Origin: Saxidomus purpurata
Lineage: Eukaryota > Mollusca > Bivalvia > Venerida > Veneridae
Length of the DNA: 64,000 nt
Direction: 5' to 3'
NCBI GenBank assembly: GCA_022818135.1
Contig: JAFMSR010000008.1
Span: forward strand, 34,610,257 to 34,674,256
Positions 1,102 to 21,911 of the stretch are shown in pieces. Under the pieces are notes generated by a model. That model searched no databases, had not been told where the DNA came from, and saw only the letters and a program-made list of their open reading frames with translations. The translations under genes and the position numbers were made by a program. The stretch's first letter is position 1. The number at the start of each line of letters is the position of its first letter.

Positions 1102-4100
1102 CTACACGGCCGCTTTTACATCTTCCTCTTGATACGGTTGATACGTAAAGTTCGGATCATCTTGATCATACATATCTGTATTATATTCTTCTAACTTAAT
1201 GTCACTTTTAGTTACTTCTTTATGGAATGGTAAAACAGGAGTTTCTATCCGTTCTTTAGCTATAGAACCAGGGAGTGATAGCTGGTCAATATCTTCATAA
1301 TTGTTAATATCAGATATCATAACTGGAGTCATAGGGATTGGTGAAAAATCTGTTTGAGTACCTCCTTCAAAGAATTCAGGTACTGGAGTAGTTTCTTTGT
1401 TATTAACCTTCTTCTTTTTATCTAGTATTTCACGTTTCTTTAACCTGCTAACCTGGGTGGAAGGCGTTCGGGGGACACGCTTATGTCCACTCCTAGAGAG
1501 TGTTGTACTACTGCGTTGAATATTGCCTGACTTCGGAGGGTCGTATCTCGAATACATACGCTTTACGTGTGACGGTGGGCGTGCAGGTATGGGTTGTTGT
1601 AATTCCCAAAACAATGCCCTACCATACAGAAACTGCAGACTTTCATCAGCTGAACTCAGCAAATCTTTCTCGGACGTTGATGTTGTTTCTGAAATGTACG
1701 TTTTGATATAGAGAGAATGGTGACTAGATACTGACAGAAGATCAATAAAAGATCCTAGTATTATACAACTGAAACAGAACTTTAAAAAATGTTATTTTCT
1801 TACGTTTGATATAATCAAAGTATTTCTTATCCCGGTAAAGTTCCTCTAGTAGCTTCTTCCACCTGTTTTCTGGAAGGCGTTTCTTCAGAGTTTCGAGATC
1901 CATACTCTCCATTCCGTTTGTGTTATCCCCAAAAGCTTCCTTCCAAGCCCGCGGGTTATCTTTTCTGTGAATACGGGCGAGTGGCGCCATTGAGGCCATA
2001 TTGGAATTGTTTCTTGTCAATGGTTGGGTGAATTCTTCTTCTTCAGGTTTCTGCCTAGATTTAGGTGGCATGTACCTCGTGTTGGGAGGCATACCTGGTG
2101 TTCGCGGGTTCGATCCTAGAGAGAACCGATCTTTCGGTCGCTGTAATATAGATTTAACAATGCTTTAATTAGCCACTAATATCTTAATTTTATACCATGC
2201 CATATCTCTCAATGAGATTATGGTCTTAGTATAACAATGACAGCAAGCGACACAATTTAACAACACTTCTGTGATTACACTTGAGAGCTAGCAGATGTTC
2301 ATACAGTTGACACAGTTTTGAGTATGAAATATTTTACCAAAGATAATCTGGATGATAACGAGCAAAATATATTATAGAAAGGTCTAATAAAATGCCAACA
2401 GATTTTTAATTGGAGACATTCTGTGTTCCGCCAGTTCCAAGATAGGAAAAGAACCGGCAAACCTACTCCATACGTCTTACCGTGTAACCTATGTCGGAGT
2501 GGTGGGATGGAGGGCATTGGAGATATAGTGTTTGCCCTTGCATTGCGTAATCGTCGGATCATTGCTGACCATGGTCTTGATCTTGGTCTAAGTTTAGGTG
2601 GCGCACTCCATGCTGGCTTCTTCTTTTTAGTTACAGATGTAGGTCGAAACAAAACAATTCTCCTGACAAAAGGAGTTTTTCCGTATGGTATATATCTAGA
2701 AACAACAAGTTTCTTTTTCTTCTGGGCTCTTTTATCATTTTTCTTCTGAAAGTGTGTAAATACTTCTGAGAATCATACTCTTAACTGAATGCTTCTGTTT
2801 CTATTGCTTCTTGGATATACTTCTGAAATTTTTCTGCTTTAATACATGCCAAAACGTTGTTTTTAAATTTATTTGATTTACTTGCTTTTCCCGCCTTTTA
2901 GTGAATACAGAAGTATTTCCAAAAATTACTGCTTACTGCAAGTAATGACCACAGAGCATTCAGTGTATCAGGTGTTTTCCTTTTTACAGAATTAAATGAC
3001 TTACTTTTCGTTTATCCTTTTTATCTGCTTTAAGGTTAGGTAAAATAAGACGTGGTTCTTTGGTTTCATCGTCTGACAAATCATCAACTGCGTTTTCATT
3101 ATCAGCAATATCACTTAGTGTTTCAACGTCTTCCAATTTCTATAAAAATATTAATAATACCAACTGAATTAAAAGGTAAACGTTGCAGTCTGAATGCTCT
3201 GTGGTTGCTATAACACTACTGTATAAATTAAACTTTACATACAGTTACAATGTAGCTGGACCTTCAAGCTGCAAGAATCCAATTAAACTTCAATTGAGCT
3301 TGCAAAGACAGAGCACTCATAAAAGTGAAAGAAATTAGTAAACATAGTAATGCATTCAAGTACCAATTATCCTGCTGGTTTTATCTTCAAGCAAGGTTTT
3401 TACAAGGCGTCAATGTGTTTGAGCCTCAAACATGGTGTGGACTTTAAAAAAAGCTACACTTGTGTTAAACCAGAGGAACTGTTTTGTTAAAACAAATGTT
3501 CAATTCATTTCAAATTTTATCGACACTTGTAGAGATTAAAAACCGGACAGGCAATTGTCGACGTACTTACTGGACTGAGTGACATCATATTACAAACCGG
3601 GCTAGCAATTACAGACGTACTAACAAGACTGAATGACAGCACATTGCAAACCTCAAGCCTCCAAAAGGGACCATGACCAGTACTAATAAGGTCTCAGCAA
3701 AAGCATTAAAAGGGCTACGATAATTTCTGCTACATTTTACTTTATGTATATATGTACATTGTATAATCATACTATAGTAAATACGCCTTAACTTTGTTGT
3801 ATTAAGTTTGTTTTATTAAAATAAAGTCATGACATATCAAGAATAACTCTTTTTAAGTATTGAAAACAAAATTTAAAGACGTTACCTTTGCCTTCTTTGA
3901 ATCTGCTTTGTCACCGCCAACGTTCTTTGTTTCTTCATCAGCAAACCTTGTCTTCCTCTTATTTTCTCCAGTCTGTTTGTCAGCCTCTTCTACTTGTATC
4001 ACAATATCCTTTGTTTGTGTAGCCCTTCCACCTTCCGTCCCATCTGGTGTGTCCGCCAGAGCTGAAAAGAAAGATTCATTTTCAGATTCTTTTTTGACCT

Positions 4101-7100
4101 TATGTATCCCATACATAAAACACATTCCGTGGAAATATAATAGTAATAGCTTCGAGTAACAGTTACAGTGAATAGCTATTACTCTTTCTTGCTTATCAGC
4201 TTTACAAACTTAAACCTAAGATTGAGACATTATTTACATAGTCATTTGAAACAACTGATTTGAAATAACCACGTACGTTTAGCCCTTGGTCGAAACTTTA
4301 ACTTTGCTAAAGCTAGAGCTCTCATGGGTCTCTTTCGTCCCTTTGCCATATCTTTTATCCTGTCTGAGAAAACTTTGTTCGTCTTTTCTGCTGCCCTGAA
4401 TTCATCCTTATTGTCTCTTCTTTTCCTCTTGTCAGCAAACATGGATGCTTCAAGCTAGAATTGATTGTAAATGGTTATTGAGCGTTTAAATTGCACGGAC
4501 AAGTTCTTTGCAGGAAAATGAACTATGGCCGTTCTTAAGAGAAAAAAGGGTTGTGTCTTCACATAATATCAATTATACTGTTGATACAATTCTTATGTTT
4601 TGTTAAAATTATTTATTTTAATTATCTATACTATCTAGTCAATCAATTACATATATTGTTTCGGCTCATCATTTCAGGTTATATTGGATTTCAATGACAC
4701 ATACCGCGGTTTGACGCTGCTCTTCGTCCATATACAGCTGACCCTCGTTGTAGCCCTGAAACAGTTAAAATCTACGTTATCAAACTGCTCAGTTCTTTTA
4801 TAGCTGTTGGAGCAAATGCTAAATATTTTTAATAAGGACTCATCAATATTTATTGTATGACTTACTTTACTAATACTATCGTTAGTCACATCAAATCAAT
4901 TTGTGCTATTTTTGCAAAAAAACGTATTATGTAAACAATGGTAAATCTATAACTGTTACTAAAAATGCTAAATAACAGTTAAATATTAGTTATGCTACAC
5001 GTGCTCATAACATAAAACACATGCTCACTGATAATTTCGGTGGATATCCGAATCTGTAAACATGGTGTATATGGCCTTCGGTCTTGGTAAATATCGCATT
5101 CCCCGGGCCCATAGATTTGGTTATTCACCTCATCATCAATAATACCTCGATAAAAGGTCGCGGCTTATTTTAATCTGATTGCTTACCTTATTATAAATAG
5201 TATAGCACTTTATCACAGTTTTATCCTTGTTCTGCCTATAGAAGAAAATGGTGGCTTATTTTTAGTCAGGCTTATTTTTAGGTTAATTTCCACTGCAAGA
5301 AATTGGTTGCTTACTTTAAAGACCGGCTTATTATCAAGACATTATGCTTTTTGTGTAAACTATCTAATGTGACAACCAGCCAAAGAGTTCCTACGAAAAG
5401 CTGTAGCTTACCTCAAGACCCTCCAAGTCCATCATATCTTTCCTCTGTGACTTTTTAATAAGACCATTCTTCATGTTGTCCGGAGAGTACATCAGACGGT
5501 CAAGGTCATACCGGGCCTCGTCAGGGAGACCAAGCCGCATGTTGGGAGATAGCGCGTCTGGATCAACCTGTGAACGAGTGGAGGGTTTTGTGCATAGCTT
5601 TGTTACTGCATATTATGCTCGATTTCAGTTAAAATTAACTCTCGCAAAAAGACCTTTGATCAAATTCTAAATTTTAAAAATACTTTTATACTTCAGACTT
5701 TCTGAAACAATTGTCCTTTTCTGACAAGTGCAAGTTCCACCCTTCACTACTCGTTTACAAAATATTAACAATATAACAATATTTGTCAGAAATAGTAACA
5801 TTTTGTCAGAAATAGTAACATTTTGTCAGAAATAGTAACATTTGCCAAAATGACTCGTATAATATGCGTTTCATTACACGCGACGGATATAGAAAAGAAA
5901 CCTAGAACAAAGTTCTACAGAGATTCTTGTTCATAGCATGAAAGAATGGAATGATAGCTCCATGGAATTCAGAACATTTGATATGAAAATTTTTGAACAG
6001 CATTATAAAAATTACGTCAATAACAAACTGACATCAAAATATATCTTACACATGAACCTACTACGAATGTTTTGTGAGTGTCTATCTTTGAGTCAGCTTT
6101 TACATGGACTTTATGTACAGCTGCTTTCTACCCAACAGCTTCAAGTCCATCCATTATGCTAAAATCTTCCAAATATAACTGCATCACCCAGCCCATAATG
6201 CATCACCCAGCCCATAATGCATCACCCAGCACATAATGCATCACCCAGCCCATAATGCATCACCCAGCACATAATGCATCACCCAGCCACTAATGCATCA
6301 CCCAGCCCATAATGCATCACCCAGCCCATAATGCACTTGTAAACAAAAATAATTTGTAGTATGAAAAAACTTACGATACAATAAACTTTGTATATAACGA
6401 CTCCGGATATAGCGAAAATCCTGATAAAAGAAAACACGTTTTCTTGGCCTGATTTCGTTTTTTTTTTCTTAATTAGATATAGATATGCTATATGGATATA
6501 TCATATTTCTGATATAATGAACAAGTTTAAATGTTCCCAAGGAGTTTGTTATATATGGAATTTACTGTGTCCTGTTTGTATAAATAAAACGTATAAGGTA
6601 ACCTTTCTGTTTGCAGCCTCCCATTCTGCTTGTCTTTTTTTCTTTCTTTTCTGATAGAAGTAGTATATTACACCAGCTATAATGAGCGCCACTATCAGGA
6701 AACAGATGATTACAATGGCTGCTATAACACCAGCAGATAGCGTTGATGTTTCATCGTAAGCTGTAAACACGAGTCATATCTATATACAAGTAACTCAATT
6801 TTATCATAAAAGGAAGCGCTGATCCACGTCTATATACAAGTTACTCAATTTTATTGTAAAAATGCATAAAAGATTGCACCGTAGCCCCAACAATTTACGT
6901 TGCAGTATAGTATATGACATCAGCTATGATGAGTGGCACCGGAAACAGATGGTTACACTGAGTGCTATAACACCAGCACATAGCCTTATATTGTACCTTA
7001 TAAGCAAGCTGTGGTTACAGATAATCAACCAATATCATAATTAAACTTTATACAACAATCGCGAGTACATAGACCATTATATACATTGCAAATGATTAAA

Positions 7101-10100
7101 ACAATGAGTTACATATCGAATTTTCATTTTAGTGGGTTATACAATGTCATATTGTTACAGATATTTGTTTCAAAGGCAAAAGTGTCAAAGTGAAAGCACT
7201 TATAATGGAAACAGAACACTTTACTTACCACACAACACTGAAACAGTTAAAAAAACAAATATAAAATAATGATATCAGACAATGTATGTTTTGACACAAC
7301 GTTTCTTTCATATCTGCACGAGATGAAACGTGCTATGACAAAATCAATTATGTTTAATATCTTCGACACCATGGTAAAACACAATTTTTTACATACATGT
7401 AGCTTAGTATGATGTCTTTATTCTTATATTTGCGTCAGAATCGCTTGTTTGGCAACTGCAGGAAACATTCTAGTAAAAAAAAGAAATAATGCACACTTGC
7501 ATATTTAAGTTCAAAATGTAAATTATTGTTCTGCATAATATATACATAAATAGATAAAAAAAAATATTGTCATAACAATATTCGGGCTGGTTGTGAAATA
7601 TGTAAAACTGGTATTACCTGATGACGTCATGACCAGTGCTGCACCAGGAGACGCTACGTAAGTTTCATTCATCGAAGCAGGACAATCGCCCGGATATTGC
7701 GTGGCGTAAACTGTTCCATAGCCCTTTGCTTGCTGAATATAAAGTACATAAAAATATGGTTGGATTGGCGCATCGAACACAAAGTTTCAATAAATTTCAG
7801 GACGTTTTTTTTGTTCTCGTGAATAGAATCTAGTAAAGATTTCCTCTTTGTCGTACAAAAATTAGAGAAGTGAAGCAAACATGAGTGAACGGCGCGTGCA
7901 TACAGCACGTGAAATGTGTTCTATGAGTGCTAAATCTATTATATCCCTTACATAAGAAATATGAACAGTGGAATGAACTGTCATACTTACGTAGCAAGTG
8001 AATCTATAAGTCGTACTTTCATCAGTGCTGGTATCCAAGTTATATACATGAATCGTGTACACGCTACTTGATGATGATGAATACACGCAATTTGTTATCC
8101 CACCAGCTGCAAAAGAACATGGAAAAATGTTTTAGAAATCTACTTTATTACGTAACAATAAAATTATATTTAAAACTTTTTCAGGTATTCCAATACTATT
8201 GCTAGAATGACATTGCGCCTACATGTATACGTTTTAGGCCGGCGGGACATTTTGCCTGTTGCTTAAGTCCCAGCAAATAGATAAAAACTAGATATTTTAT
8301 CACGAAAACAACACGTCTCCCACCTCCACGGCGGGAAATCAGATGATCAAAATAATTCCTAATCAAAAGAAGACCAATGAAAAATGTTAGAAAATAATGA
8401 AAGCCGTTTACCTATAAATGTAAAATGTACAGCCTTTCATATGGCAACATATAAGTATTCTAGAACTAAGCAGGTCTCATTCACAGTCACATTTTGATTA
8501 TTCTGAATACTTTAGAAATACATTATTTCAGTTTCTTGACGTGTTTAGCACAATCGGTGCCTGTGACTGTGATAGAGACCTGTGTATAGTTCTAGAATGT
8601 TTTATGTTGCCATACGATAGGCTATATTTTACAGATAAACGGCTTTCATATTTTTTCAATCATTTTTCAAAGATTAACTTTTGTTTAGAGAATATTTTGA
8701 TCATGTCATTCCTCATCGTGACCTCTCAGGTCACAAAACAATCCAGCAAAGAGCATATTTTATTATGTACATCTAGATTTCATACTGATGCTTGCTGCAA
8801 AGTTTTATGAAAATCTAGCAAGGGATAAATGAATGGTAATGTCCACATAGATCGCCGCTTTGTCGATCTCGCAGGAGTGATGTGCCGGATGTACCAGTTT
8901 TTACCATGGCGGTGAGTCAAATGGCTTGCCGGCTGCCGGCGAGTTACCGGAAAACAGCGGGTATTACTAACAGCCCCATTATCGAGCGCCTATTATATAT
9001 CTAAAAATCTATGTCTCTAAAACAAGCAAACCTGAATATGCTTGAATCTGTGTACATTGCGTGTAGTCCCAAGTCATTGTGACCTTGTCATTGCAAACAG
9101 TCACCAGTGAATCATTACACAAATTACCCGTGCCCGTATCGTACGTGTATGCGAAATTACCGAGGAATGGTATACCACAAGTACTTTTAACTGTGTCAAT
9201 TGTACCTGAAAATAAAACGTTTTTCAAAAACGTTCAAATCACATCATATCTCGTTAAAATGAGTTTTAGAGCTCAAATATTTCATTCAAAAGACATTTTG
9301 TATCATGACACAATTTACCTCTATTAACTGTTTTTAAAAAGTTGAGCAAAGGGAATCAAGCGTCTATTGTGTTTTTGCTTCCTATCTTTCTTGTACCTTA
9401 TAGTAGAGTTACTTGTCTTCTTACTTCTTATATGGTCAAGTCTACTTCTTTAAGTAGGGGTATTTTGCAGCATTGCGATCCGCCGGCAAAAGGTTAACAA
9501 TTTGAATCCTGGTCAGATGACACTGTATTTGTCGCCTGCTTAGGAGTGTTGGTGCATGTATTTGTATAAACACTAGGGACAAATGTATTAACCAAAATGC
9601 CTTTTTACTCAGCACAAAGAAACTGCCATTTTCATCAGCATGCAAAATGTAACTCATTTTTACTCGATGACAAACATCAGCCCCCGGGGGGAAAAAAAAC
9701 AAAAAAAAAAAAAAACCCCCCCCCCCGGGGGGCGGGGGGGTGGGGGGAAAAAAAAAAAATTGATTATTATTAAAGGGACATTATGGGCATTTTACTGCAC
9801 AAAGTGAAGACTTGCCATTTTTCAACAGCAATTTTCGGTTGCTTGGATTAAATGTGTTAACTACTGTAATTGAAGTCTGTCTACAAAAAGGACTAAAACA
9901 ATAATTCCTTTCTTGGCAGTGATCCCTTGTTTATTTTGCCTATTTTGGCAGTGGAAAGGAAGCAACTCTGCACAACTTAAATTGACAACCCCGTCAATCA
10001 CCGCCGGAAAAAGTAGTATTTGGAAAGTTAGTATTTCGTACTGGCTGGAAAAGTTCGTGCTTGTAAAAATTATTTCCTACCTTTTCAAAGGTTGGCATTG

Positions 10101-11624
10101 ATTATCATTGACTATCATTGATAGAATACACCGACTTTAAAAGTTTCATAGAACCATTATCAAGTTTTATACATTTTTAACATTATACAGTCTTGCTCTT
10201 ATTACACATTTCTTGCCCGTGAGCCCCAAAGATCTGTTTTCAAATCTATGCTTGGTTCATGCTTACCAGAAGCTTTGTAGTACTTGTATAGATCCCCTGT
10301 CGACACAGAGCTCACTTGTTGTAGGTCCAGGCATAAGTACGCATAGAAATTCAGACCAAAACGCTTGAAAGACTCCGATCTGAAAAACAGTTTCATTAGA
10401 GATTTAAATTCTTGACTGGCACCGTATGGTATACATGTTATATTCTTGATTTATAGTTCATGTCTTCAAGTTTTTCAATTGCAACCTGTAAGTTTCACAG
10501 CAGCTACTTGGATCCCGCTCCAAACATAAACGTTTTGTCGTATTTGGACTCAAACCTTTTCGTGTAAAATAAAATCTCAAATTTTATTCCATTTTTGATT
10601 GCATTCTATACTGGAAGTATTTTAGCTTCAACGACAATAAGAGTGTTAAAGACGACCGCTACAATTTAGTCTTTTGTTTAACAGCATTCAGAGTTTTCTC
10701 AAATTAGTTTTTTGTAAGGTTAATACCTGATAAGTCAGAATTTAAAATAAAAAAGTTTCGGTCATCAGCCTTATTAATAATATCAATTTAATTTGTTCTT
10801 AATGCTCCTCATGCAAAATAGTTGACTTTTTGGCAAACACCTGAATAAAACTGTGCAAAGTTTACCCATGTACAGAGGGCTGACTAGTTACACAGAGGCG
10901 GAAAAGCCTCGTCATTTTTGACCCACCCTCGTTACATATACTGACAGATGAAATCCAAGTACATTGAAGATTGCTACATAGGACTGATTTCTTGCCCTTG
11001 TCTAACCATCAACGTCATCAACAAACAGTTATTATTCCTGTATGTAGCATAGATACTCACTTTACAACATACTTTCCCGAGTATTCTTCGATGCACGTGA
11101 AATTGTCTGTTGTGAACGTGGATATCTTATACCCGGAGAAAGTGCTATCCGCAAACTGAAGCTCATTTTTTTCACTGCTTATCCACAAACCTCTTATATA
11201 ACTAGGAAATGTACATTGACCTGTTGTAAAGAAATTTGTGAAAAGGACGTCATAATATGTAACAAATATTCATATGCATTTATTATTTAAAGCTATATCG
11301 TCATATATAGAAAATTACAGCTGTGTTGTTTTGACAGAAACACTGGCCAAAAAGTAAAACTATATCTTTCAAACAGCTTTTGTTAGGTATCAAACATTGA
11401 TACCAACACTAGATACGAACAGGCAGAGCGAAATAGGTATCACAGTGTGACAGAAACTGCTGATTATAAAAGAATTTGATACATTTTTCTAAACTAATAA
11501 CGAAGTCAGCATATTTATATAATAATTTTCAAGTAAAAGAAAGTAAATCAAAACTCTTCTTACCGATACATGAGCCTACAAGACAGCCTAGAAAGACAAT
11601 CAGAACGTTGCAAATGTTTGCCAT
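1102..11624 (-). CDS. Gene A: type I single-pass membrane protein, Cys-rich ectodomain, long basic tail
   Basis: Fifteen coding exons (minus): 11624-11564, 11220-11061, 10379-10267, 9205-9032, 8106-7991, 7732-7618, 6760-6603, 5567-5412, 4755-4705, 4454-4277, 4061-3886, 3139-3005, 2745-2467, 2140-1804, 1688-1102. They total 2796 nt (931 aa) with compatible phases at every junction. Residues 1-20 look like a signal peptide (start MANICNVLIVFLGCL). The ectodomain, about residues 21-250, has paired cysteines and N-glycosylation sequons (NFT, NDS, NET). One membrane helix lies near 256-282, followed by a KRKKKR stop-transfer. The tail of about 650 aa is rich in Lys/Arg with acidic patches and no domain I recognise. 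The ectodomain matches gene B exon for exon; from memory it resembles the invertebrate Cys-rich membrane proteins annotated with DUF7042-7045 type domains. The counterpart of B's fourth exon was not found. The donor at 2467 (GTAGGT) was chosen because the stronger GTAAGA 18 nt earlier breaks the frame. Ligand and function are unknown. Confidence 0.8.
5784..5843. repeat. 20-bp tandem repeat, 3 copies
   Basis: Three near-identical units of GTCAGAAATAGTAACATTTT lie in the gene A intron between the exons at 5567 and 6603. Nothing else is visible in this intron apart from the 19-bp array at 6181-6335. Confidence 0.85.
6181..6335. repeat. 19-bp minisatellite, about 8 copies
   Basis: Units of TGCATCACCCAGCCCATAA, with a few substitutions (CCC/CAC), are arranged head to tail in a gene A intron. 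The repeats are directly adjacent with no unique spacers, so this is a minisatellite, not a CRISPR-like array. Confidence 0.9.
6395..6520. repeat. Dispersed repeat fragment ('ccggatatagcg' family)
   Basis: The stretch containing TATATAACGACTCCGGATATAGCG resembles parts of the dispersed repeat at 13345-13530. It lies in a gene A intron upstream (in plus coordinates) of the transmembrane exon. Similarity is short and the boundaries are uncertain. Confidence 0.35.
6772..6873. repeat. Tandem duplication of about 50 bp
   Basis: Two copies of a segment containing CTATATACAAGTAACTCAAT (second copy with GTTACTCAAT) stand side by side between the gene A transmembrane exon and its decayed duplicate at 6895-6985. 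Confidence 0.75.
6895..6985 (-). pseudogene. Decayed duplicate of the gene A transmembrane exon
   Basis: Read on the minus strand this stretch aligns with the membrane-helix part of the gene A exon at 6603-6760: the shared codons read roughly AGVIA...TICF, then PLIIADVIYY against ALIIAGVIYY. A 4-bp deletion in the middle shifts the frame and gives a TAG soon after, and no complete splice pair flanks it. I read it as an exon duplication that has decayed. I judge similarity to be about three bases in four over 85 bp, by eye. Confidence 0.65.
8344..8703. repeat. Long inverted repeat, arms about 145 bp
   Basis: The left arm (8344-8490) and right arm (8563-8703) are imperfect reverse complements separated by a loop of about 72 bp. 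Matching landmarks are ATGATCAAAATA/TATTTTGATCAT at the outer ends, ATGGCAACATA/TATGTTGCCAT in the middle and TCACAGTCAC/GTGACTGTGA at the loop. It sits in the gene A intron between exons 7991-8106 and 9032-9205. It is probably a palindromic non-autonomous transposon; no coding sequence is present. Confidence 0.85.
9440..9770. repeat. Repeat-like intron segment with A/C/G homopolymer block
   Basis: A probable dispersed repeat is followed by runs of A, C and G (about 9686-9760) that look like unresolved or artefactual sequence. Gene A is expected to hold its fourth ectodomain exon in this intron (9206-10266), but no open segment with correct splice sites and phase was found. Confidence 0.5.
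9775..10130 (+). repeat. Dispersed repeat, copy 1 (inverted copy at 22750-23150)
   Basis: It begins with TTAAAGGGACATTATGGGCA and TACTGCACAAAGTG. The reverse complement of 23150-22750 carries the same landmarks in the same order, including AATTTTxGGTTGCT, AAATGTGTTAA and GGCAGTGGAxxGGAAGCA. It lies in a gene A intron. The repeat family was not identified. Confidence 0.7.
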
Positions 11625-13194
11625 CTTTAGACAAGACGACACTATACGCCATTGTTTATCGTTCCAAATGTAGATCCGCCATCTTTAACTCATGCAACTA
11701 TGGTGATTCTCAATACCGGAAGTTGCTGCTATCCTGCAGGTTTCCGTCTTCTTTTTAAAAAAAATATATTAAGAATGCAGATGCTTTCAAATAATTTATT
11801 TTATTATTTTAGTCAACCTTTCCTTTATTTTATTCGTTTAAAAACAAATTGGAGACTTAATAACACGGAATATGTTATGTAGAAAATAGAGTTCCTAAGC
11901 GATTTAAATAAAGCCTCGCTGTATTAATCCGAGTTCAAATATACAAAACTTATGAGATTAACTCCTGATTAATTCTTTAGACCATGTTCTTCAGTCACTA
12001 TTGTGAAATTTATTATCCCTATTACATGCTTTCATTCAGATCATTTAAATCCCTCACAGTAATTTTGATTCACATAAAGTTCATACGTTCTCTAGGTGTT
12101 TCAATCTAATTTAAGAATTTCTTTTTAAAATATGTGGGTGTTTCCATCATGTTTTACAGAGAGAATAGGTATATCCACCTCATCCTTTTTGTTCCTGCTC
12201 TGAGAAGGCATTTACATCGCTGAATATAAATAGATGACACAAATCACGCCAATGCAACCCCACCCTTCACCCGCCCAAAGTGAAATTGGAAGACATGCCG
12301 ATTTTTTGCTCTCTGTCTGTCTATATGTATTTGCTGTCTGAATGATACATACTTAAATGTAGCGCTTCTTCTCATAAACAACTCGCAGACTACATGCGGT
12401 AGTAATCATGTTCTCATACATGAATTTTAATGAAACTTAGCAAAAGTGATATCACTATATCGCCAGGATAAGGCTCGGGATATTGTCACTTTGTTCAAGT
12501 TATGAAATCTTGTGCCTTGGTCTCTATGTCAAAAATACAGTTAATATATATAGAACTGCCTTTTCAAACTGGACGAAACTTTGCGTAAGTAATCAGTGCC
12601 AAGCCATGTTTCGCGCGTCTTAGAGAATTCTCGGTTGGATCAAGTTCGCAGTCACTGTAACTAAAATGTTTCTTATTCAAACTATACCTTTCTGTGTTCG
12701 CAATTCTTACATTGAGCCCATGTTACCTACAAAAATACTTTTTAAATGATTTGTCTGAAAACGAAATAATAAATATGTGGCTTAAAACTGCACGTCTTAA
12801 CATGGGCTTAACCATCGCGGTCAAATATTTAAAGGTCATAAACCATAATCAAAGAGGATTAATAGGGTTTTATTTTTTATAATCAATGCATCTACAATGT
12901 ATAATATGAATTTTTAAGATTTAACTAGACAAACTTTTTTTTAAAATTCGTTTGTAGGTAATCGACAAGATTCCAAAATTTCATTACTTATGTTGCATGG
13001 TGTTTTAAATTATTTGAAAGGAAATGATTTTGAGTTTTAAAAAATACGAACATCGACTTCCGGTCAAGGATTAATCTCCATAGCGTCTGTAAGGTGAACA
13101 AAAGAAAATGGAGGACTACTTGATTTACAGTCTAAGTATTTTCCGTATGAAGCCATGAATCTGTATATGCCAGAGAAAACGAACAATCATCAAA
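11625..13194. promoter_or_regulatory. Divergent intergenic region between the gene A and gene B start codons
   Basis: About 1.57 kb separates the two initiation codons, which face away from each other. No exon is supported here. Because A and B are paralogues with shared exon phases, this interval is the natural place for both promoters, possibly a shared bidirectional one. That is inference: no TATA or initiator element was confidently placed. Confidence 0.5.
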
Positions 13195-16100
13195 ATGATA
13201 ATACAGAATAGAAATGTTTTATGTATTTATATTTTTCTTCAGTTAGGATTAAAACTAGCAGGTACGTACATTTTCAATTTGTGCAAGTTCACATTATATA
13301 TATACACAGATGTGTTGCTGCTCAACATACTCTAAACAGCAACCCGGTAAACATCGTATATAACGAACATGTTAGGACCATTTAAATATGTTCTTTATAT
13401 CCGGAGTTCGTTATATCTATATATCACTTTCATATTAAATAAAGATGGAAAAAATCGGCCACAGAAAAGTTGTTCCTAATATCCGGAATTTCACTATATC
13501 CGTAGTCGTTATACTATTTTCGCTATGTGGCTTCATGTAATACAGAATTTAGTTTTTGTAGCAGGAAAGAATTGTAGATATATAATCAGGACAGCGCTTT
13601 CACTCTTTCTGCCGTTCGTGCCGTAACTTAAATAATTGATGATCAGCCATGCCCCATGATGCACGGGAACTTTAGAATTACACTACGAAAGCAAGTCACT
13701 TAGCATACAGTCTGAACGTTTCAACGTCTTGTAAGAAATAATTTATCTTTCCGTTAAAAAATCAATAAAAGTTTTCATATTTGATTTACTACCGTAGAAC
13801 AATGAATGAAAGGTACCATATTTTCCTAGATATATTTTAAAATAGTTTCCAATATAACCTGTTTATACATATGTACTTTAGACTTCTTATTTGTACAGGC
13901 GCTTGTGGTTTCCCGTCAGACCTGCAAGATGGTACGTGGCATTCCAGTGATATGGGTGATGTCACATTCAACTCTACACATTTCACGGTATCGCAGATGG
14001 TCGACTTTGGGTCATTAACGTTTACGTGTATTTCATACAGCAACTCGAAATACTATAGCGAGTAAGTATCTTTTTACATGAAATCTATTACTTGCTTAAA
14101 TATATATGGCTTAATTACTCAGTTCTTGTATCAATGACCATTTCGTCCGTCTTAACAATTTGACAGTGTTTATTCAGTTACAGAACAACCGATGAATTAT
14201 AATTTCTTTCATCCCGTTGAATTCTTTCTACCGCAAACTATTTTACTATATATTCCAAAAAGAGATATCTCTCTAATTTCAAAGAGATATATTTCGTTTT
14301 AATAGAGGTATCTCTTTCATACTGAGATAATTTTAAGAAATATCTCTTCTACTTACAGAAATATCTGTTTATTATCATTTTAGAGATATTTTTCTTTTTT
14401 CGAGAGATATCTCTCAAAGTTACAGAGATATCTCTCTATGTAAACAGTTATATTCTTTTGATGTATGAGAGATAAGATATCTCCGTATTGTACAGAGATA
14501 TCTATATTATTGGGATATATCTTTCAAATCTTTTAAAAGAAAAATATGTCCAGATTTGCACAAATAGGCCCTATCACTGAGTTTAAGAGGCATCTCACTT
14601 ATTTTAGGAGATATCTCTATGATATCAGATTAATCTCTTCTTTAATTTATAGTACAAGAAATATTTCTCCAATATTAAAGAGACGTCTTTCGATTTAATA
14701 AAGATATCTCTTTCACGCTGAGCGATATCTGTGTATCACAGAAAGATATCTCCTGAACTTTAAGATGTTTTTCTTCTGCTTACAGAGATGTCTGTTTCAC
14801 ATAATTTTCGAGATATCTTTCTTTTTTCGAGAGATATATCTACAAGGTACAGCTATATAATCTGTAAGTTTAAGAGATATCTCTTAATTTTAAACAGATA
14901 TCTTTTTTTCAGAGATATCTTTTGAGGTACGAAAGAGAAAGAGAAATACTATACTCGAACACTCCTGTACTACATTTTGTATATATTTATGATAAATGTT
15001 TTATATATTTCGAGTATCGACGGTCAAACTTTTAAACGTTTATTTTTATTTCATAAAAGTTCCTGCAAGTTTATTTCGTATAATGCTATAATTTCTCTTG
15101 CAGATCAGGTTCGTTCAGCTATTTAGGAATTACGGATCCATTCAAAGTAGCCATCTGTTTTAAATTGTCGAAACAGTCGTCTACAAAGTATTTATATATT
15201 CCACAAACAAGTAAGTACAATGTACAAGTTGGGTAAGCTTGAAAACTGCTCTTTTGACAAAGTTGCATGTATCTATGGATAACAAAATGACTGCAGTATG
15301 TGAAAAGTTAGAAGCGAGGTATTTATATTTTAATAAATAAACGATAGGAAGAGTTGAACTGTTATAATAAAGTACTGTATATTGGTAAGTTCTTTTATTT
15401 TCGCGATTTTCCAATTTCGCTTATTTAAAAATCTCGGAAAAAATTAATTTCACATAGATTAACGATTAGTGAATTCTCCTTTCACGAATTAAAAATTCGC
15501 GAATAAATATGTCTGCTTACAAATCGTGAAATGTTCGTGACGTGAAAATTACCCAGTTTACAGTATACACTAGTTTTCTTTTTGTGATTAAACTATTCTA
15601 TCTGTTGTGACTATTATTACAAGATATATCATGTGGCATCTATCTTCGGTGCTGGTCAAATATATGTACAAGGTAAACGTTTGTTTATTCTGTAAGGTTT
15701 CTGTATATGGATGATTAACTTAATGCTGAACGGTAAATGTATATGGATGACTGAGCTAATGCTGTGAAGTTAATGTATATGGATGATTGACTTAATGCTA
15801 TAAGGTCAATGAATATGGATAATTGACTTAATGCTGAACGGTAAATGTATATGGATGACTGAGTTAATGTTGTGAGGTTAATGCATATAGATAATTTAGT
15901 AAATTCTGTACGATTAATATATAGATGACTAAGTTAATGCTGTAAGGTTAATATATATGGATGACTGGGTTAATGATGTAAGGTTAATGTATATTGATGA
16001 TTGAGTTACTGTTGTACGGTTTATGTATATGGATGATTGAGTTAATGCTGTAAGCTTAATGTATGTAGATGACTGAGCTGATGTTGTAAAGTTAATGCAT

Positions 16101-19100
16101 ATGGATGACTGAGTAAATGTTTTAAGGTTAATGTATATAGATGATTGAGTTAATACAGTGCGGTTAATGTATATGGATGGTTGAGTTAATGCTGTACGGT
16201 TAATGTATATGGTTGGCTGAGTTAATACTTTACGGTTAATGTATATGGATGGTTGAGTTAATGCTGTACGGTTAATGTATATTGTCGGTTGAGTTAATAC
16301 TGTACGGTTAATGTATATGGATGGTTGAGCTAATGTTTTAAGATTAATGCATATGGATGACTGAGTTAATGTTTTAAGGTTAATTTATATAGATGATTGA
16401 GTTAATGTTGTACAGTTAATAAATTTTGCTTACAGCTACTCTAGCGAACACAGATGTGAACAGAATATATTTCAATCAATCAACTCACTCGTTCAGTTCC
16501 TCGGAGACATGTGACAGCTCATCAACCAATATAGAACACACGAGACTTCTTGTCAAATCAGGTAACATAAGCTTAGCACCAAGAATAATTGCTTTAAAGA
16601 GCAAAAAAGTAGCTATGGGCATTGTCATAAAACAAATTCAGTGATATGGTAACAGCCTTAGGCGTAGCGTTCGATATAATTTTATTTTAAGCTCACTTTA
16701 ACCGAAAGCTCTAGGTGAGCTATGATGATTGATACATGTCCCAGAGGTAATGCCCATGGAAAACAAAACTTGCTATATAATACTTTCTTTGTGGTCTGGG
16801 AATTGCATTTCTTGAGCAATCATAACCTCACTAGGAAGTATGTATGGCAAAACGTCTTAATTATGATTCAGATGGGACCAGTGTATTTAGGTAAGGGTTC
16901 CTGTGTTATCAACGATGCCATATAGAACATTTACAATCCAGAACCTTCATGTCTTTAGCAATTCAACTGATTTTAAAGGGACATACCCTACATCTAGCAG
17001 ATTATATTTTCGAAACATAGATAATGTGTTCAATGAATGTAACATGAGAAGTATTACATTGCGACTGGGGGTGTTGGAGATAAAGAGCGCACACTATATT
17101 ACTATCTCGAGCCCCTTTGACTTTGGTCATTGACCTAGTGAAACGAAACATGGGTCATGCACAGCTACGCAAGGTACTTGTCATATCTGTGAAGAAATCA
17201 TTGAATTTTGACCAGGGGTTTTTACAGGTTAATGGCGCACAATATTTTACTGTCTCGAGCCCATTTGTCCCTGACCTTTGACATTGCGATCAGAACATGG
17301 GCGATGAAGCACTAGACATTGTCCTTATCATTTCTGTGAAGTATCATTAAATTCTGACAGGGGGTTTTGGAGATTAAGAATGCACACTTTTTCACTATCT
17401 GGAGAAACATAGACCATGAAGCACTATACATGGTACTTATTCATTCTGTGAATTATCATTGAATTCTGACCAAGGGTTTTGGAGATGAAAGTCTAAAATC
17501 ATTTCTATCTCGAGACCCTGTGACATTGACCTTTACCTAGTGACCCGAAACATAGACCATGCCAGCTAGACGTGGTACCTATGACTTCTGTGAAGTATAT
17601 TAAATTCTGACCAAGGGTTCCGGAAATTTAGCGTCCACAAGATTGCGACTACAAACGAACAGACAGACACATAAGCTAAATCCAGTATACCCCACCCCTT
17701 ACACTTTGTGTGTTGGGCATATAGCTACTTATCATCACATCTGACACATTTTTCATTAAGACTTGTTAAACTCAAATGTTATAGGTTATGCAAATGTCTC
17801 TTCTGTGGACTGTGCCAATGATATCTCCGGTCAATATACGTACAACGTGACAGGAAGCACCTGCACGAATACGTTTGTCGACGGATGTACAAATAAAAAT
17901 GAGATGGTATTTAACTACACACTCTGCTCTGACGTCATGGCATACTCAGGTAAGTTTCAGTCTAATAGTCGAATAGTTTCAGTCTTATATCGTTTTAGAA
18001 AATATCTTTATGATGCAAACAATAAACCGACCCTTAGTTGATAGTCAGTTTACTATTAAATCTTTGTAATTATGTCATAGATAATTATTACTTTGACTGT
18101 AGGCTGTATATAGGAAGAAGGTACACTCGTATATACCGTCGGATTGGTAAGTTTCCGCACATCTAGAGATGTCTAACTTGAAACTAATATCTGACCTCAA
18201 ACCTCGCGAATGTAAAAAGCAATCCAAAGCCACGATTTAAATTTCAACATATGTCTAGATAAGATGGCCGTCTTGAAAATATATTTTCAGCCGGAGGCAA
18301 ACTTCTTTGCATGTACAACGCGATTTACGGAGACAAGAGTTACACCCTCCTCTATAACGATGATAATAGTACGGATGAGTCGACATACTACAGATTTTTA
18401 TGTATGGTAAGCAATCTATACACGCATGCGCAGACACATGCGCGTGCATTCTAACTTACGAGATGGAAGAAATACTGAAATGAAATTAAATTTACCTTTA
18501 ACATGTAAAAACCCGTCTTTGAATATTACAAACGGTCTCATGAATGTACAAGTCAGTATTAAATTCTCCATAGTCAAAGTTTCTAAGATACCAAGGACCA
18601 ATGGTCGTCATCACTTGGCAGTATAGGCAACATAAGTAACGAGTCAACTCCTACAATGAATCTACGCAAACTGTTTTAATTGTGGTTTCATTTTTCAACA
18701 GAATGATAGATTCTTAACTAGATCATTGTTGTGTGCTAGGTATTGGAATGTAGGTGCGGCGTGAGGTTTATCAGCTTTCAGTTTTATGTTAGTAACAAGA
18801 TGTGTCCTTTTTTCATTTTCCGAAAGCTCCGTGTTTTGTTCTCTTTTCATCGACAGGCATACAATATATTAGCCGCTATGTCATCTCCATATAATAATGT
18901 AAAATAAAAAGAAGCTATACTAGTTTTAGTATACTAGTACTACGATCTCTCTCCTCTATTGATTATTCCCTGTTAGTTTTAAAATTTGGATCCCTAATAA
19001 AAAAGTGCTATATATTGAACATTTAAGTACCATTTGTTGTCGGTACTTCATTTTGTATTGTCAGTTTTAACACCCTATGTTGCCGTTAAAACATTGACCC

Positions 19101-21911
19101 TTTTACTATGCTATATCGTCGGCAATGCATCGTCTCTTCAAATACATCACGATGTCCGTATTACGTTAAACTTTAAGAAAACCATGTTGTCGGTACTGCA
19201 TTTGTCCTTCTGACTCCGCACGTCGTCAGTAATACGTTTTCCCTTCAGACATCCTGTGGTGTGGGTATTGCATTACCCCTTTAGCATTATTGCTATTGCA
19301 TTGTCCGTTCAAACGGTCTATGATGTTGGCATTGCAAAAACCCTTTTACGGCTTTTAACATCCTATGTTAGTGCAAAAGCAATACCCTTTCAGACGGTCT
19401 ATGATGTTGGCATTGCAAAAACCCTTTTACGGCTTTTAACATCCTATGTTAGTGCAAAAGCAATACCCTTTCAGACGGTCTATGATGTCGACATTGCAAA
19501 AACCCTTTTACGGCTTTAACATCCTATGTTAGTGCAAAAGCAAACCCTTTCAGACGGTCTATGATGTTGGCATTGCAAAAACCCTTTTACGGCTTTTAAC
19601 ATCCTATGTTAGTGCAAAAGCAATACCCTTTCAGACGGTCTATGATGTTGGCATTGCAAAAACCCTTTTACGGCTTTTAACATCCTATGTTAGTGCAAAA
19701 GCAATACCCTTTCAGACGGTCTATGATGTTGGCATTGCAAAAACCCTTTTACGGCTTTTAACATCCTATGTTAGTGCAAAAGCAATACCCTTTCAGACGG
19801 TCTATATGTCGGCATTGCAAAAACCCTTTTACGGCTTTTAACATCCTATGTTAGTGCAAAAAGCAATACCCTTTCAGACGGTCTATGATGTTGGCATTGC
19901 AAAAACCCTTTTACGGCTTTTAACATCCTATGTTAGTGCAAAAGCAATACCCTTTCAGACGGTCTATGATGTTGGCATTGCAAAAACCCTTTTACGGCTT
20001 TTAACATCCTATGTTAGTGCAAAAGCAATACCCTTTCAGACGGTAATACCCTTTCAGACGGTCTATGATGTCGACATTGCAAAAACCCTTTTACGGCTTT
20101 TAACATCCTATGTTAGTGCAAAAGCAATACCCTTTCAGACGGTCTATGATGTCGGCATTGCAAAAACCCTTTTACGGCTTTTAACATCCTATGTTAGTGC
20201 AAAAGCAATACCCTTTCAGACGGTCTATGATGTCGGCATTGCAAAAACCCTTTTACGGCTTTTAACATCCTATGTTAGTGCAAAAGCAATACCCTTTCAG
20301 ACGGTCTATGATGTCGACATTGCAAAAACCCTTTTACGGCTTTTAACATCCTATGTTAGTGCAAAAGCAATACCCTTTCAGACGGCCTACGATGTTGGCA
20401 TTGCAATGACCCATTTAGCATCCTATGTTACGGCTAAAGTAAAGCCCCTTCAGACGGCCTATGATGTCGGCATTGCAATTGCCCTTTTAGCATCCTATGT
20501 TCTTGCTAAAGCAATGCCCCTTCAGACGGCCTCAGATGTCGATATTGCAGTGACACTTTTGCTGCTTTGAGCGCCCTATTTTACTGCTAAAGCAATGCCC
20601 CTTCAGACGGCCTATCATGACGGCATTACAATGACCCTTTTAGCATCCTGTGTTATTGCTTAAGCAATGTCCCTTCAGACGGCCTCAAATTGACCCTTTT
20701 AGCATTCTTTGTTATTGCGTAAGCAATGTCCGTTCTGACAGCCTATGATGTCATGATGTCAATATTGCAATGACCCTTTTAGTACTTCAAAGCTGATATC
20801 ACATCCAAATTACAGTGTGTTATTCCATGCCTCAATTATGGTCTGTGGCACTATCACATCAGAACAAGAGTGATAACTGGCGAAGAAAATTTCATATAAT
20901 CATTCAAATATTTTTGAAAAAAAAAACAACTTTCAGGTTTCAAAAGTTGGTTCGGATGGAACATATGTGACCACTTACCCAAGGGCTTGTTTAGACTACC
21001 AGAATGCGTCTGCTATCGCATCACCGGGTGTCGCCTTTGTAATGTCAGCAAACAGTGAGTGTATATTAGTATCTTTGTTAACTGTTGAGTGAAGTGTAGA
21101 AGGCTTAAGTTCAAAAGTTTAAAATTGTTGCTTACTTTGTGACAGCAAGTGTTAAAGTCTAAGTTATCTGTTTCGCTGACTGTTTAATCAATAAAGTATG
21201 TAGAAGAAGTACTCTAAGCAGTTACACATCATACATACTTAAATATATGTATTAATATATGTAATTGCAGCTACTTGTAAGACAGATAGTGACGATACAT
21301 CGACCCTGAGTGCTGGAGCTGCAGCTGCTATAGTGATAGCCCTTCTTATCCTGGCTGTTGCCGGTGTCGTCATAGGAATATGGTATTATATCAAGGTACA
21401 CAAATTGAAAAAGGTCAACCCAGACATGATCGCTGCGAAGTCGCCACCAATCGATACTAAAGAGCAAGAGAAAAACCTTGACGGGAGAGTATCTCCATTC
21501 TCACCGTATCCGACAGTCAGTGAATTGGCTTTATACAGATTTGGACCGTCGGAAATTGATGACGACGACGGTGGGATGACTCTTGGAGCAACAACTCCAG
21601 GCTTTACAGATGGAAGGCGAACGATGTTTGGGAAGGATGCAGAGAGAGAAAGTCAGGCAAGTTTGCCTATGTATAGTGAGGTGGGTGGAGATACGCCAGA
21701 ACCCACAAGACTCAGTGAAGTGCATACTAGGATGAGTGAAATATCTGAAGTCAATATCGCAGATCCAACACCGTTTACTATGACACGTGCCACTATGAAC
21801 ATTCCTGAAGAAACACGTGTTTCACCATTGCAAACCCCAACGGAAAGTAGGCCTAATGGAACGATACAATCACCACGTGAAAATGGCGGTACAAATGATG
21901 TAACACTGTGA
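13195..21911 (+). CDS. Gene B: type I single-pass membrane protein, Cys-rich ectodomain, short tail
   Basis: Eight exons: 13195-13261, 13899-14061, 15104-15210, 16436-16561, 17785-17949, 18291-18406, 20937-21054, 21271-21911. They total 1503 nt (500 aa) with every phase compatible. The start MIIQNRNVLCIYIFLQLGL gives a signal peptide joined in phase to ACGFPSDLQDGTW. The ectodomain (about 23-300) has regularly placed cysteines (CGFP, FTC, AICF, ETC, DCA, GCT, LCS, LLC, FLC, RAC, TCK) and many N-glycosylation sequons (NST, NQS, NVS, NVT, NYT, NAS). A helix at about 302-327 (AAAAIVIALLILAVAGVVIG) precedes a tail of about 170 aa rich in Ser, Thr, Pro, Asp and Glu with no recognised domain. The whole tail is in the last exon. 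The ectodomain is paralogous to gene A; exon six is 116 nt in both. DUF7042-7045 type similarity is from memory. It could be an adhesion molecule or receptor; its role is unknown. Confidence 0.88.
13345..13530 (+). repeat. Dispersed repeat ('tatatccgga' family)
   Basis: Contains GGACCATTTAAATATGTTCT, TTTATATCCGGAGTTCG and ATATTAAATAAAGATGG. The same ordered landmarks occur at 62448-62530 (GGGACCACTTACATTTGTTC, ATATCAAATAAAGAAGC), and TTATATCCGGAGTTTACTG occurs near 63613. It lies in intron 1 of gene B. The transposon class is undetermined. Confidence 0.6.
14270..14940. repeat. Array of palindromic AGAGATATCTCT motifs
   Basis: Intron 2 of gene B holds some two dozen copies of AGAGATATCTCT or one-base variants in about 670 bp. 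They sit at irregular spacing, each its own reverse complement around the GATATC core. It is not a simple tandem repeat because spacers differ. Confidence 0.85.
15690..16430 (+). repeat. 36-bp minisatellite, about 20 degenerate copies
   Basis: Units like GTTAATGTATATGGATGATT followed by GAGTTAATGCTGTACG fill intron 3 of gene B and stop immediately before exon 16436-16561. Units vary by substitution and a few small indels. Confidence 0.9.
17040..17700 (+). repeat. Degenerate tandem repeat of about 140 bp, bivalve-type intergenic repeat
   Basis: About four to five units, each with a version of GCACACTATATTACTATCTC, GACCTTTGACCTAGTGA-like and TTCTGTGAAGTATCATTGAA segments. The right edge, ACAGACAGACACATAAGC and poly-C-rich sequence, resembles ends of tandem-core elements known in bivalves. 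It is in intron 4 of gene B and has no coding potential. Confidence 0.7.
19060..20790 (+). repeat. 81-bp minisatellite, about 15 near-identical copies plus degenerate edges
   Basis: The unit contains CGGTCTATGATGTTGGCATT, GCAAAAACCCTTTTACGGC, ATCCTATGTTAGTGCAAAAG and CAATACCCTTTCAGA. The central copies (about 19310-20390) are almost identical; units outside decay progressively. It lies wholly inside intron 6 of gene B. Because 81 is a multiple of three and one frame lacks stops, it produces a spurious 240-codon open frame. Confidence 0.93.

Follow-up and report, generated by a model that had tools for sequence, protein, structure and literature searches.

Introduction

The calycins, among them lipocalins, fatty-acid-binding proteins (FABPs) and avidins, are mostly single-domain, soluble proteins. 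APCDD1, a vertebrate cell-surface Wnt inhibitor (with APCDD1L; Pfam family APCDDC, PF14921), is a single-span protein with a small cytoplasmic domain, and its ectodomain (residues 27-492, with 12 disulfide-bonded cysteines) comprises two beta-barrels distantly like those of lipocalins and P2, the second of which has a lipid-holding pocket; its authors regard the combination of a membrane anchor with two barrels as unusual (PMC10193966). Here we describe two neighbouring genes of the venerid clam Saxidomus purpurata, A (minus strand) and B (plus strand), located in a 64,000-nucleotide stretch (the window) of contig JAFMSR010000008.1, referred to below as C8 (assembly GCA_022818135.1; C8:34610257-34674256). 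We think it somewhat likelier right than wrong that A and B are type I single-pass proteins of one molluscan family, encoded in a cluster of at least five paralogues, whose barrels bind hydrophobic or lipidated ligands and whose tails set the outcome.

Genes A and B join a homologous ectodomain to unlike tails

The ectodomain and transmembrane helix of A and B align at 33% identity over 340 columns (E 2e-41), indicating that the module shared by the two genes is homologous, as a sequence-only reading of this locus had proposed. Reconstruction of both genes reproduced every ectodomain exon length given in that reading (A/B: 61/67, 160/163, 113/107, -/126, 174/165, 116/116 and 115/118 nucleotides (nt)), as well as the equal intron phases, with B carrying one extra phase 1-1 exon, and the STLSAG motif that precedes both helices. 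The tails are as unlike as had been claimed, with zero mutual match at E up to 1. Among the protein matches recovered, the relatives of A are P0004-P0013 (the eleventh match, P0014, being from Haliotis) and those of B are P0001 and P0002, with further B-type relatives, P0015-P0025, coming from a search with the tail.

Splice reconstruction of gene B gave eight exons encoding 500 amino acids (aa) over a genomic span of 8.7 kb, with every junction GT-AG and intron phases 1,2,1,1,1,0,1, the product running from signal peptide through ectodomain, STLSAG and helix to tail. In window coordinates on the plus strand, exon 1 (13195..13261, 67 nt) encodes the signal peptide; the first predicted barrel starts in exon 2 (13899..14061) with C-x-F-P...G-T-W, continues in exon 3 (15104..15210) and ends, together with a link, in the 126-nt exon 4 (16436..16561), for which no counterpart was found in A. 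The second barrel starts in exon 5 (17785..17949), which is DUF7042-like by Pfam profile match, and continues in exons 6 (18291..18406) and 7 (20937..21054), while exon 8 (21271..21911) carries STLSAG, the transmembrane helix and a highly conserved 173-aa tail ending in D-V-T-L. P0001 is a 493-aa relative with 56% identity covering 99% of B, and since it is a complete open reading frame on contigs no longer than 1,893 bases, compared with 8.7 kb for gene B, it is probably a spliced transcript.

Gene A, on the minus strand, was reconstructed as 14 exons encoding 838 aa in an open frame, with the stretch 2481-2745 omitted; its ectodomain junctions are all GT-AG. The signal peptide is encoded by exon 1 (11564..11624, 61 nt), barrel 1 starts in exon 2 (11061..11220; C-x-F-P...G-L-W; DUF7043 match at 5e-5, below cut-off) and continues in exon 3 (10267..10379), and barrel 2 starts in exon 4 (9032..9205; DUF7042-like at 6.6e-5, below cut-off) and continues in exons 5 (7991..8106) and 6 (7618..7732). 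Exon 7 (6603..6760) encodes STLSAG, the transmembrane helix, which is predicted in the orthologue from Mactra, and a basic stop-transfer segment. Seven exons follow the membrane exon, one fewer than first read, and the tail is corrected from about 650 to 555 aa. These are exon 8 (5412..5567), which matches Mactra at 85% over 54 aa; exon 9 (4705..4755), a 51-nt microexon matched by P0005 and P0010 and missing in the predicted P0004; exons 10 (4277..4454), 11 (3886..4061) and 12 (3005..3139), found by splice reconstruction and tblastn; exon 13 (1804..2140), found by tblastn, with a conserved segment modelled as helical in Mactra; and exon 14 (1102..1688), with the tail end and stop. The description of this tail as Lys/Arg-rich is correct in that it has 110 K+R, but it also has 97 D+E.

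An ectodomain resembling DUF7043/7044 and DUF7042, predicted to fold as two barrels

By sequence, the ectodomain looks like a divergent module of the DUF7043/7044-DUF7042 kind. Across A, B and the three neighbouring paralogues described below (C, D and E), DUF7042 matches the second barrel region of A, B, C and E, and DUF7043 the first of A, C, D and E. For DUF7042, with a curated cut-off of 27 bits, A (23.3) and B (26.1) score below and C (32.5) above; for DUF7043/DUF7044 (PF23070, PF23071) the best score is 24.0 bits (A) against a cut-off of 27, with no match listed for B. Only C passes a cut-off among the DUF7042, DUF7043 and DUF7044 matches of the five genes, and the profile search suggested at the outset yielded family matches, DUF7042 in A and B and DUF7043 in A, all below curated cut-offs. 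A precomputed DUF7042 domain is present in 8 of the 10 A-type matches P0004-P0013, the two without it being the tail-only P0005 and P0010, and DUF7042 was found in 11 of the 23 members of the homologue set (best 5.2e-12) in a Pfam scan at E up to 1 in which 25 of 86 Pfam families were listed. The Pfam entries for DUF7042, DUF7043 and DUF7044 (PF23069-PF23071) give their function as unknown, and a search of one literature collection for DUF7042-DUF7045, PF23069-PF23071 and six locus names returned no paper.

Structural models of an A-type and a B-type protein each contain two calycin-like barrels with the same strand order. For the B-type model, lipocalin, FABP/P2 and avidin types account for 33 of the 50 structural matches listed (8 of the 33 provisionally typed, and many being repeat entries of one protein), and both domains draw mostly closed up-and-down barrels. 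For the A-type model the corresponding figure is 22 of 50 for lipocalin, avidin type or APCDD1 (one provisionally typed), with APCDD1 itself in 3 of the 50 listed rows. The equal strand order goes against the differing ectodomain folds that the sequence-only reading had named as an objection to itself, although the two models were built from overlapping alignments. The head of barrel 1 reads GLW in A and GTW in B, and the same position in barrel 2 reads GNF and GQY; GxW at the barrel head is a motif of the lipocalin/calycin superfamily. These models predict that the ectodomain folds as two tandem up-and-down calycin-type beta-barrels, on the plan of APCDD1. It comprises 274 aa with 12 cysteines in B and 231 aa with 10 cysteines in A. 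Barrel 2 was also considered as a sequence repeat of barrel 1, and no convincing repeat was seen; a search by sequence for a solved relative found none, the best E being 0.59.

Orthologues of both genes indicate an old A/B split

Both genes have orthologues in Mactra, namely P0004 for A (ACF0H5_011139; a single protein of 887 aa comprising ectodomain, helix and tail) and P0002 for B (ACF0H5_011140). The locus tags are consecutive and each lies on a contig of 45,786,304 bases, so A and B are probably adjacent in Mactra too, as read from tags in which strand is not visible. In Dreissena, an A-type tail (DPMN_107358) and a B-type tail (DPMN_107455) are on contigs both of 145,370,454 bases, with tags 97 apart. 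Local alignment of A gave 56% identity with Mactra A, 41% with Mytilus, 39% with C and 30% with B. A tree was built from 12 ectodomains (P0002, P0007, P0008, P0011, P0013 and P0015 were omitted because they were broken, partial or nearly duplicate). Of its nine inner branches, three were well supported (that joining A to Mactra A, that joining B to P0001 and that joining the two Mytilus rows) and five were open; D and E are long branches whose placement is unsure. Given that both genes have Mactra orthologues and that Mytilus shares the A tail, sequence comparison places the A/B split before that of this clam from Mactra, and probably before the clam-mussel split. The exon plan common to A and B is ancestral and not the mark of a recent inversion.

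The tails are conserved and differ from gene to gene

The B tail is strongly conserved: across 14 sequences (B plus all 13 tail-search matches), 75 of its 173 columns do not vary. The invariant columns include four S/T-P sites and also Tyr sites, and 9 of the 14 tails finish in D/E-V-T/A-L/V/I, the other five stopping earlier without that ending; the V-T-L C-terminus of B is presumably class II PDZ-like. Compared with Mactra, B is 91% identical in the tail (158/173) and 58% in the comparable ectodomain piece (77/132); compared with P0001, the values are 77% and 49%. This conserved tail on a drifting ectodomain points to an intracellular partner. For A and Mactra A, tail and ectodomain are 73.5% and 67.5% identical, and the model predicts helices at residues 630-714 of the Mactra protein. 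Since A-type proteins with a matching tail occur in Mytilus (E 1e-23) and Crassostrea virginica (E 3e-26), the A tail is at least as old as the split of Mytilus and Crassostrea from clams. In Pfam scans, neither tail gave a match passing cut-off, and no known enzyme domain was found in either.

A and B belong to a cluster of at least five paralogues

The locus had been described as a divergent pair; it is instead the right-hand end of a cluster. A genome search with P0004 and P0001 found more plus-strand exons directly left of the window, and reading of the 70 kb to the left (C8:34540257-34610256) placed at least three extra paralogues within 50 kb of it, all on the plus strand: E at C8 ~34.563-34.575 Mb, D at ~34.579-34.592 Mb and C at ~34.593-34.605 Mb. 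The array E(+) D(+) C(+) A(-) B(+) thus has at least five paralogues within ~70 kb, and sequence identity does not make A and B sister copies. The tails of C, D and E differ from that of A, from that of B and from one another, giving five different tails in all. The notion of one ectodomain module with two signalling ends survives in part: the module is shared and the two tails are unrelated and old, but the pair belongs to this larger cluster.

Up to the membrane exon, gene C has the same exon plan as A and B (58/172/104/135/163/116/118 nt). Its simple exon join breaks the frame at exon 5, which may mean that the gene is disrupted, that a splice site is unusual or that the sequence contains an error. 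Gene D seemingly has no first intron, and the first exon of gene E was not found. The match between the C and A tails is confined to the helix and juxtamembrane segment (E 2e-4), and that between C and Haliotis (E 3e-7 without composition correction, with no such row when the correction is applied) covers mostly the same parts. A short C-terminal motif of 16 aa in the C and Lottia tails (E 0.83), perhaps also present in A by eye, is weak and is not relied on here, and in gene D a W-x-x-K-W-E motif is common to three tail stretches. At E up to 1, neither the rest of the window nor the 40 kb on its right-hand side yielded a further copy. Elsewhere in the genome, candidates lie at C8 17.5, 28.3, 29.4 and 30.7 Mb and on C2, C5, C7, C11, C25 and C2133, some of them weak (E up to ~0.1), and genome-wide paralogue counts are lower bounds. 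At C5:9.77 and 9.82 Mb, ~55 kb apart, each place has two DUF7042 matches within open frames of 701 aa, probably one frame per place.

The region between A and B contains an in-sense motif upstream of each gene

A and B are indeed head to head, with 1,570 bp between their ATGs. Bidirectional promoter pairs have starts less than about 1 kb apart, a threshold below the A/B distance, which is measured from ATGs and not from transcription starts. The motif ACTTCCGGT, which we take to be ETS-like, has three copies in the window, two of which lie directly upstream of A and B, each in the sense of its gene: one at 11715..11723 on the minus strand, 91-99 nt upstream of the A ATG, and one at 13056..13064 on the plus strand, 131-139 nt upstream of the B ATG. 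Its 8-base core, CCGGAAGT, occurs four times, compared with 0.44 expected. ETS-like sites are frequent in promoters generally, and because of this, and given that ACTTCCGGT is missing upstream of C and D and that E has a shorter form only, ~1.1 kb ahead of exon 2, we keep the motif as a lead only for a regulatory link between A and B. Co-regulation of the two genes, to which adjacency and the promoter motif hint, is unproven, and a common ligand is conjectural.

A doubtful exon and a missing exon in gene A

The 265-nt open stretch at 2481..2745 (minus strand) was likely taken as an eighth tail exon in the sequence-only reading. It was set aside as an exon of the main product: it is out of frame with the next exon and breaks the frame downstream, whereas 3005-3139 joined to 1804-2140 brings together two phase-0 ends and restores the frame. 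P0004 (Mactra), P0005 and P0010 (Dreissena) gave zero tblastn match to this stretch at E up to 5, and four Mytilus rows match it weakly (33-35%, E 0.47-1.8); it may still be used as an alternative exon. Five candidates for a microexon that would rescue its phase were tried and none was convincing. P0009 (Mytilus californianus) and P0013 (Crassostrea virginica) have a second, alternative C-terminus, mutually similar (E 3e-20), which was not found in the gene A tail region and to which the stretch 2481-2745 does not correspond (best E 0.19).

The counterpart of the 126-nt exon of B is present in Mactra A, Mytilus, oyster and the neighbouring gene C, and is missing from gene A, where the site falls within the intron at 9206..10266 (minus strand). 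Comparison of this intron with the Mactra exon piece gave nothing better than E 0.12. The intron carries dispersed repeats at ~9416-9549 and 9762-10078, mostly 68-80% identical to many copies, and also, at 9681-9760, a patch of poly-A/C/G that is possibly misassembled. With the counterpart present in relatives and an intron without a good match that holds repeats and such a patch, either gene A or its assembly has lost the exon. A second haplotype with the missing exon was not found, the rows outside the window covering repeat parts only among the 40 of 1,900 candidates scored.

The introns of gene B are repetitive as well. A 36-bp tandem array of ~20 copies occupies 15683-16420 in intron 3, and an 81-bp array in the last-but-one intron (19308-20685) has ~9 copies at 97% that decay further on. 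A long run at 14250-14950, also intronic, is rich in AGAGATATCTCT-like words.

Discussion

Sequence comparison establishes the gene models, the shared ectodomain with its unrelated tails, the orthologues and the cluster. If the predicted fold is correct, the barrels could serve at the cell surface to capture hydrophobic small molecules or lipidated proteins, with the tail of each paralogue coupling that capture to a different intracellular outcome. The short B tail, which has invariant S/T-P and Tyr sites and ends in V-T-L, a PDZ-type C-terminus of a kind present in 9 of 14 sequences, would suit phosphorylation and adaptor binding, and the long charged tail of A, with its conserved helical segment, might act as a scaffold. 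As no enzyme domain was found in either, the tails may work through adaptor recruitment, trafficking or ligand sequestration. Two points weigh against this picture: the fold scores of the models are middling, and P0005 and P0010 (Dreissena) consist of the A tail only, starting immediately past the membrane exon.

The latter point bears on whether gene A is in fact two genes, a short receptor ending past the membrane exon and a basic protein beginning at exon 8. Although the two tail-only proteins start where such a division would fall, they can be truncated predictions or contigs and cast a small doubt; the frame is open through exons 7-8, and ectodomain, helix and tail form one chain in P0004 of Mactra and also in five entries from Mytilus and two from C. 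virginica, counter to the split at the membrane exon that the sequence-only reading had foreseen as a possible failing. We consider a two-gene A highly improbable. Even harder to credit is a recent inverted duplication in which B arose from A and gained a new tail through exon shuffling. The identical exon plan and phases would agree with such an event, but each gene has its own Mactra orthologue, the tree groups B with P0001 and A with Mactra A with good support (deeper forks being open), A is nearer to Mytilus and C than to B, and B-type tails occur in 13 other sequences.

The nature of the ectodomain and of the gene order leave more room for other explanations. The ectodomain might be a beta-rich adhesion or matrix-binding module whose calycin matches reflect common beta topology only, which we find rather unlikely given that the domains of the B-type model match mostly closed up-and-down barrels, that GxW heads barrel 1 in both A and B and that APCDD1 appears among the listed matches of the A-type model. 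As to the order, there is about an even chance that the divergent arrangement is incidental, A having been flipped in a tandem array, with separate promoters, ligands and expression and no receptor pair. At least five paralogues of mixed strand lie in ~70 kb, identity values do not place A and B as sister copies, 1,570 bp separates their ATGs, and the composition profile (27-42% GC) reveals no GC-rich shared promoter, all of which agrees with an incidental order; on the other side, the consecutive Mactra tags suggest that adjacency is probably old, and two of the three ACTTCCGGT copies in the window stand in sense ~90-140 nt upstream of the two ATGs.

A bolder version of the ligand-capturing receptors favoured above is that clustered, membrane-anchored tandem-lipocalin receptors of molluscs sense lipids, pheromone-like small molecules or lipidated morphogens with a common ectodomain and link this sensing to very old, differing tails, with A and B forming a co-regulated two-output unit; this we regard as doubtful, at perhaps one chance among several. 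We know of no described counterpart of a tandem-lipocalin, co-regulated, two-output lipid receptor. As a predicted tandem-barrel family whose old tails differ greatly, the locus is of greater interest than as a single co-regulated pair. Should the fold prove true, the DUF7042 families would gain a function open to testing, namely the capture of hydrophobic ligands at the cell surface, and the cluster would constitute a natural experiment in which one ectodomain is combined with at least five tails.

Comparison with APCDD1 and the calycins

Pfam scans gave no APCDDC (PF14921) row for A, B, C, D or E, and an APCDDC gene of the clam lies elsewhere, at C12:39.39 Mb. Membership of the APCDD1 family was rejected on this basis and on an hhalign comparison with the clam APCDD1 exons that gave less than 1% probability, a weak test with single sequences on that side; that A and B are APCDD1 is not shown. 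The likeness to APCDD1 lies in a signal peptide, two barrels (predicted in A and B) and one transmembrane span. The 12 disulfide-bonded cysteines of APCDD1 compare in number with 12 cysteines in the B ectodomain and 10 in that of A. The APCDD1 ectodomain spans residues 27-492, whereas those of B and A comprise 274 and 231 aa, and its cytoplasmic domain is small, whereas the B and A tails have 173 and 555 aa. Each barrel of A and B is predicted to resemble lipocalins, FABPs and avidins in fold, with GxW heading barrel 1; unlike in calycins, the barrels stand in tandem and are membrane-anchored, and they show no sequence-family match. By analogy, A and B may work like APCDD1, and if the predicted fold holds, the APCDD1-style plan of two anchored barrels would recur in another family, expanded in clams and bearing substantial cytoplasmic tails.
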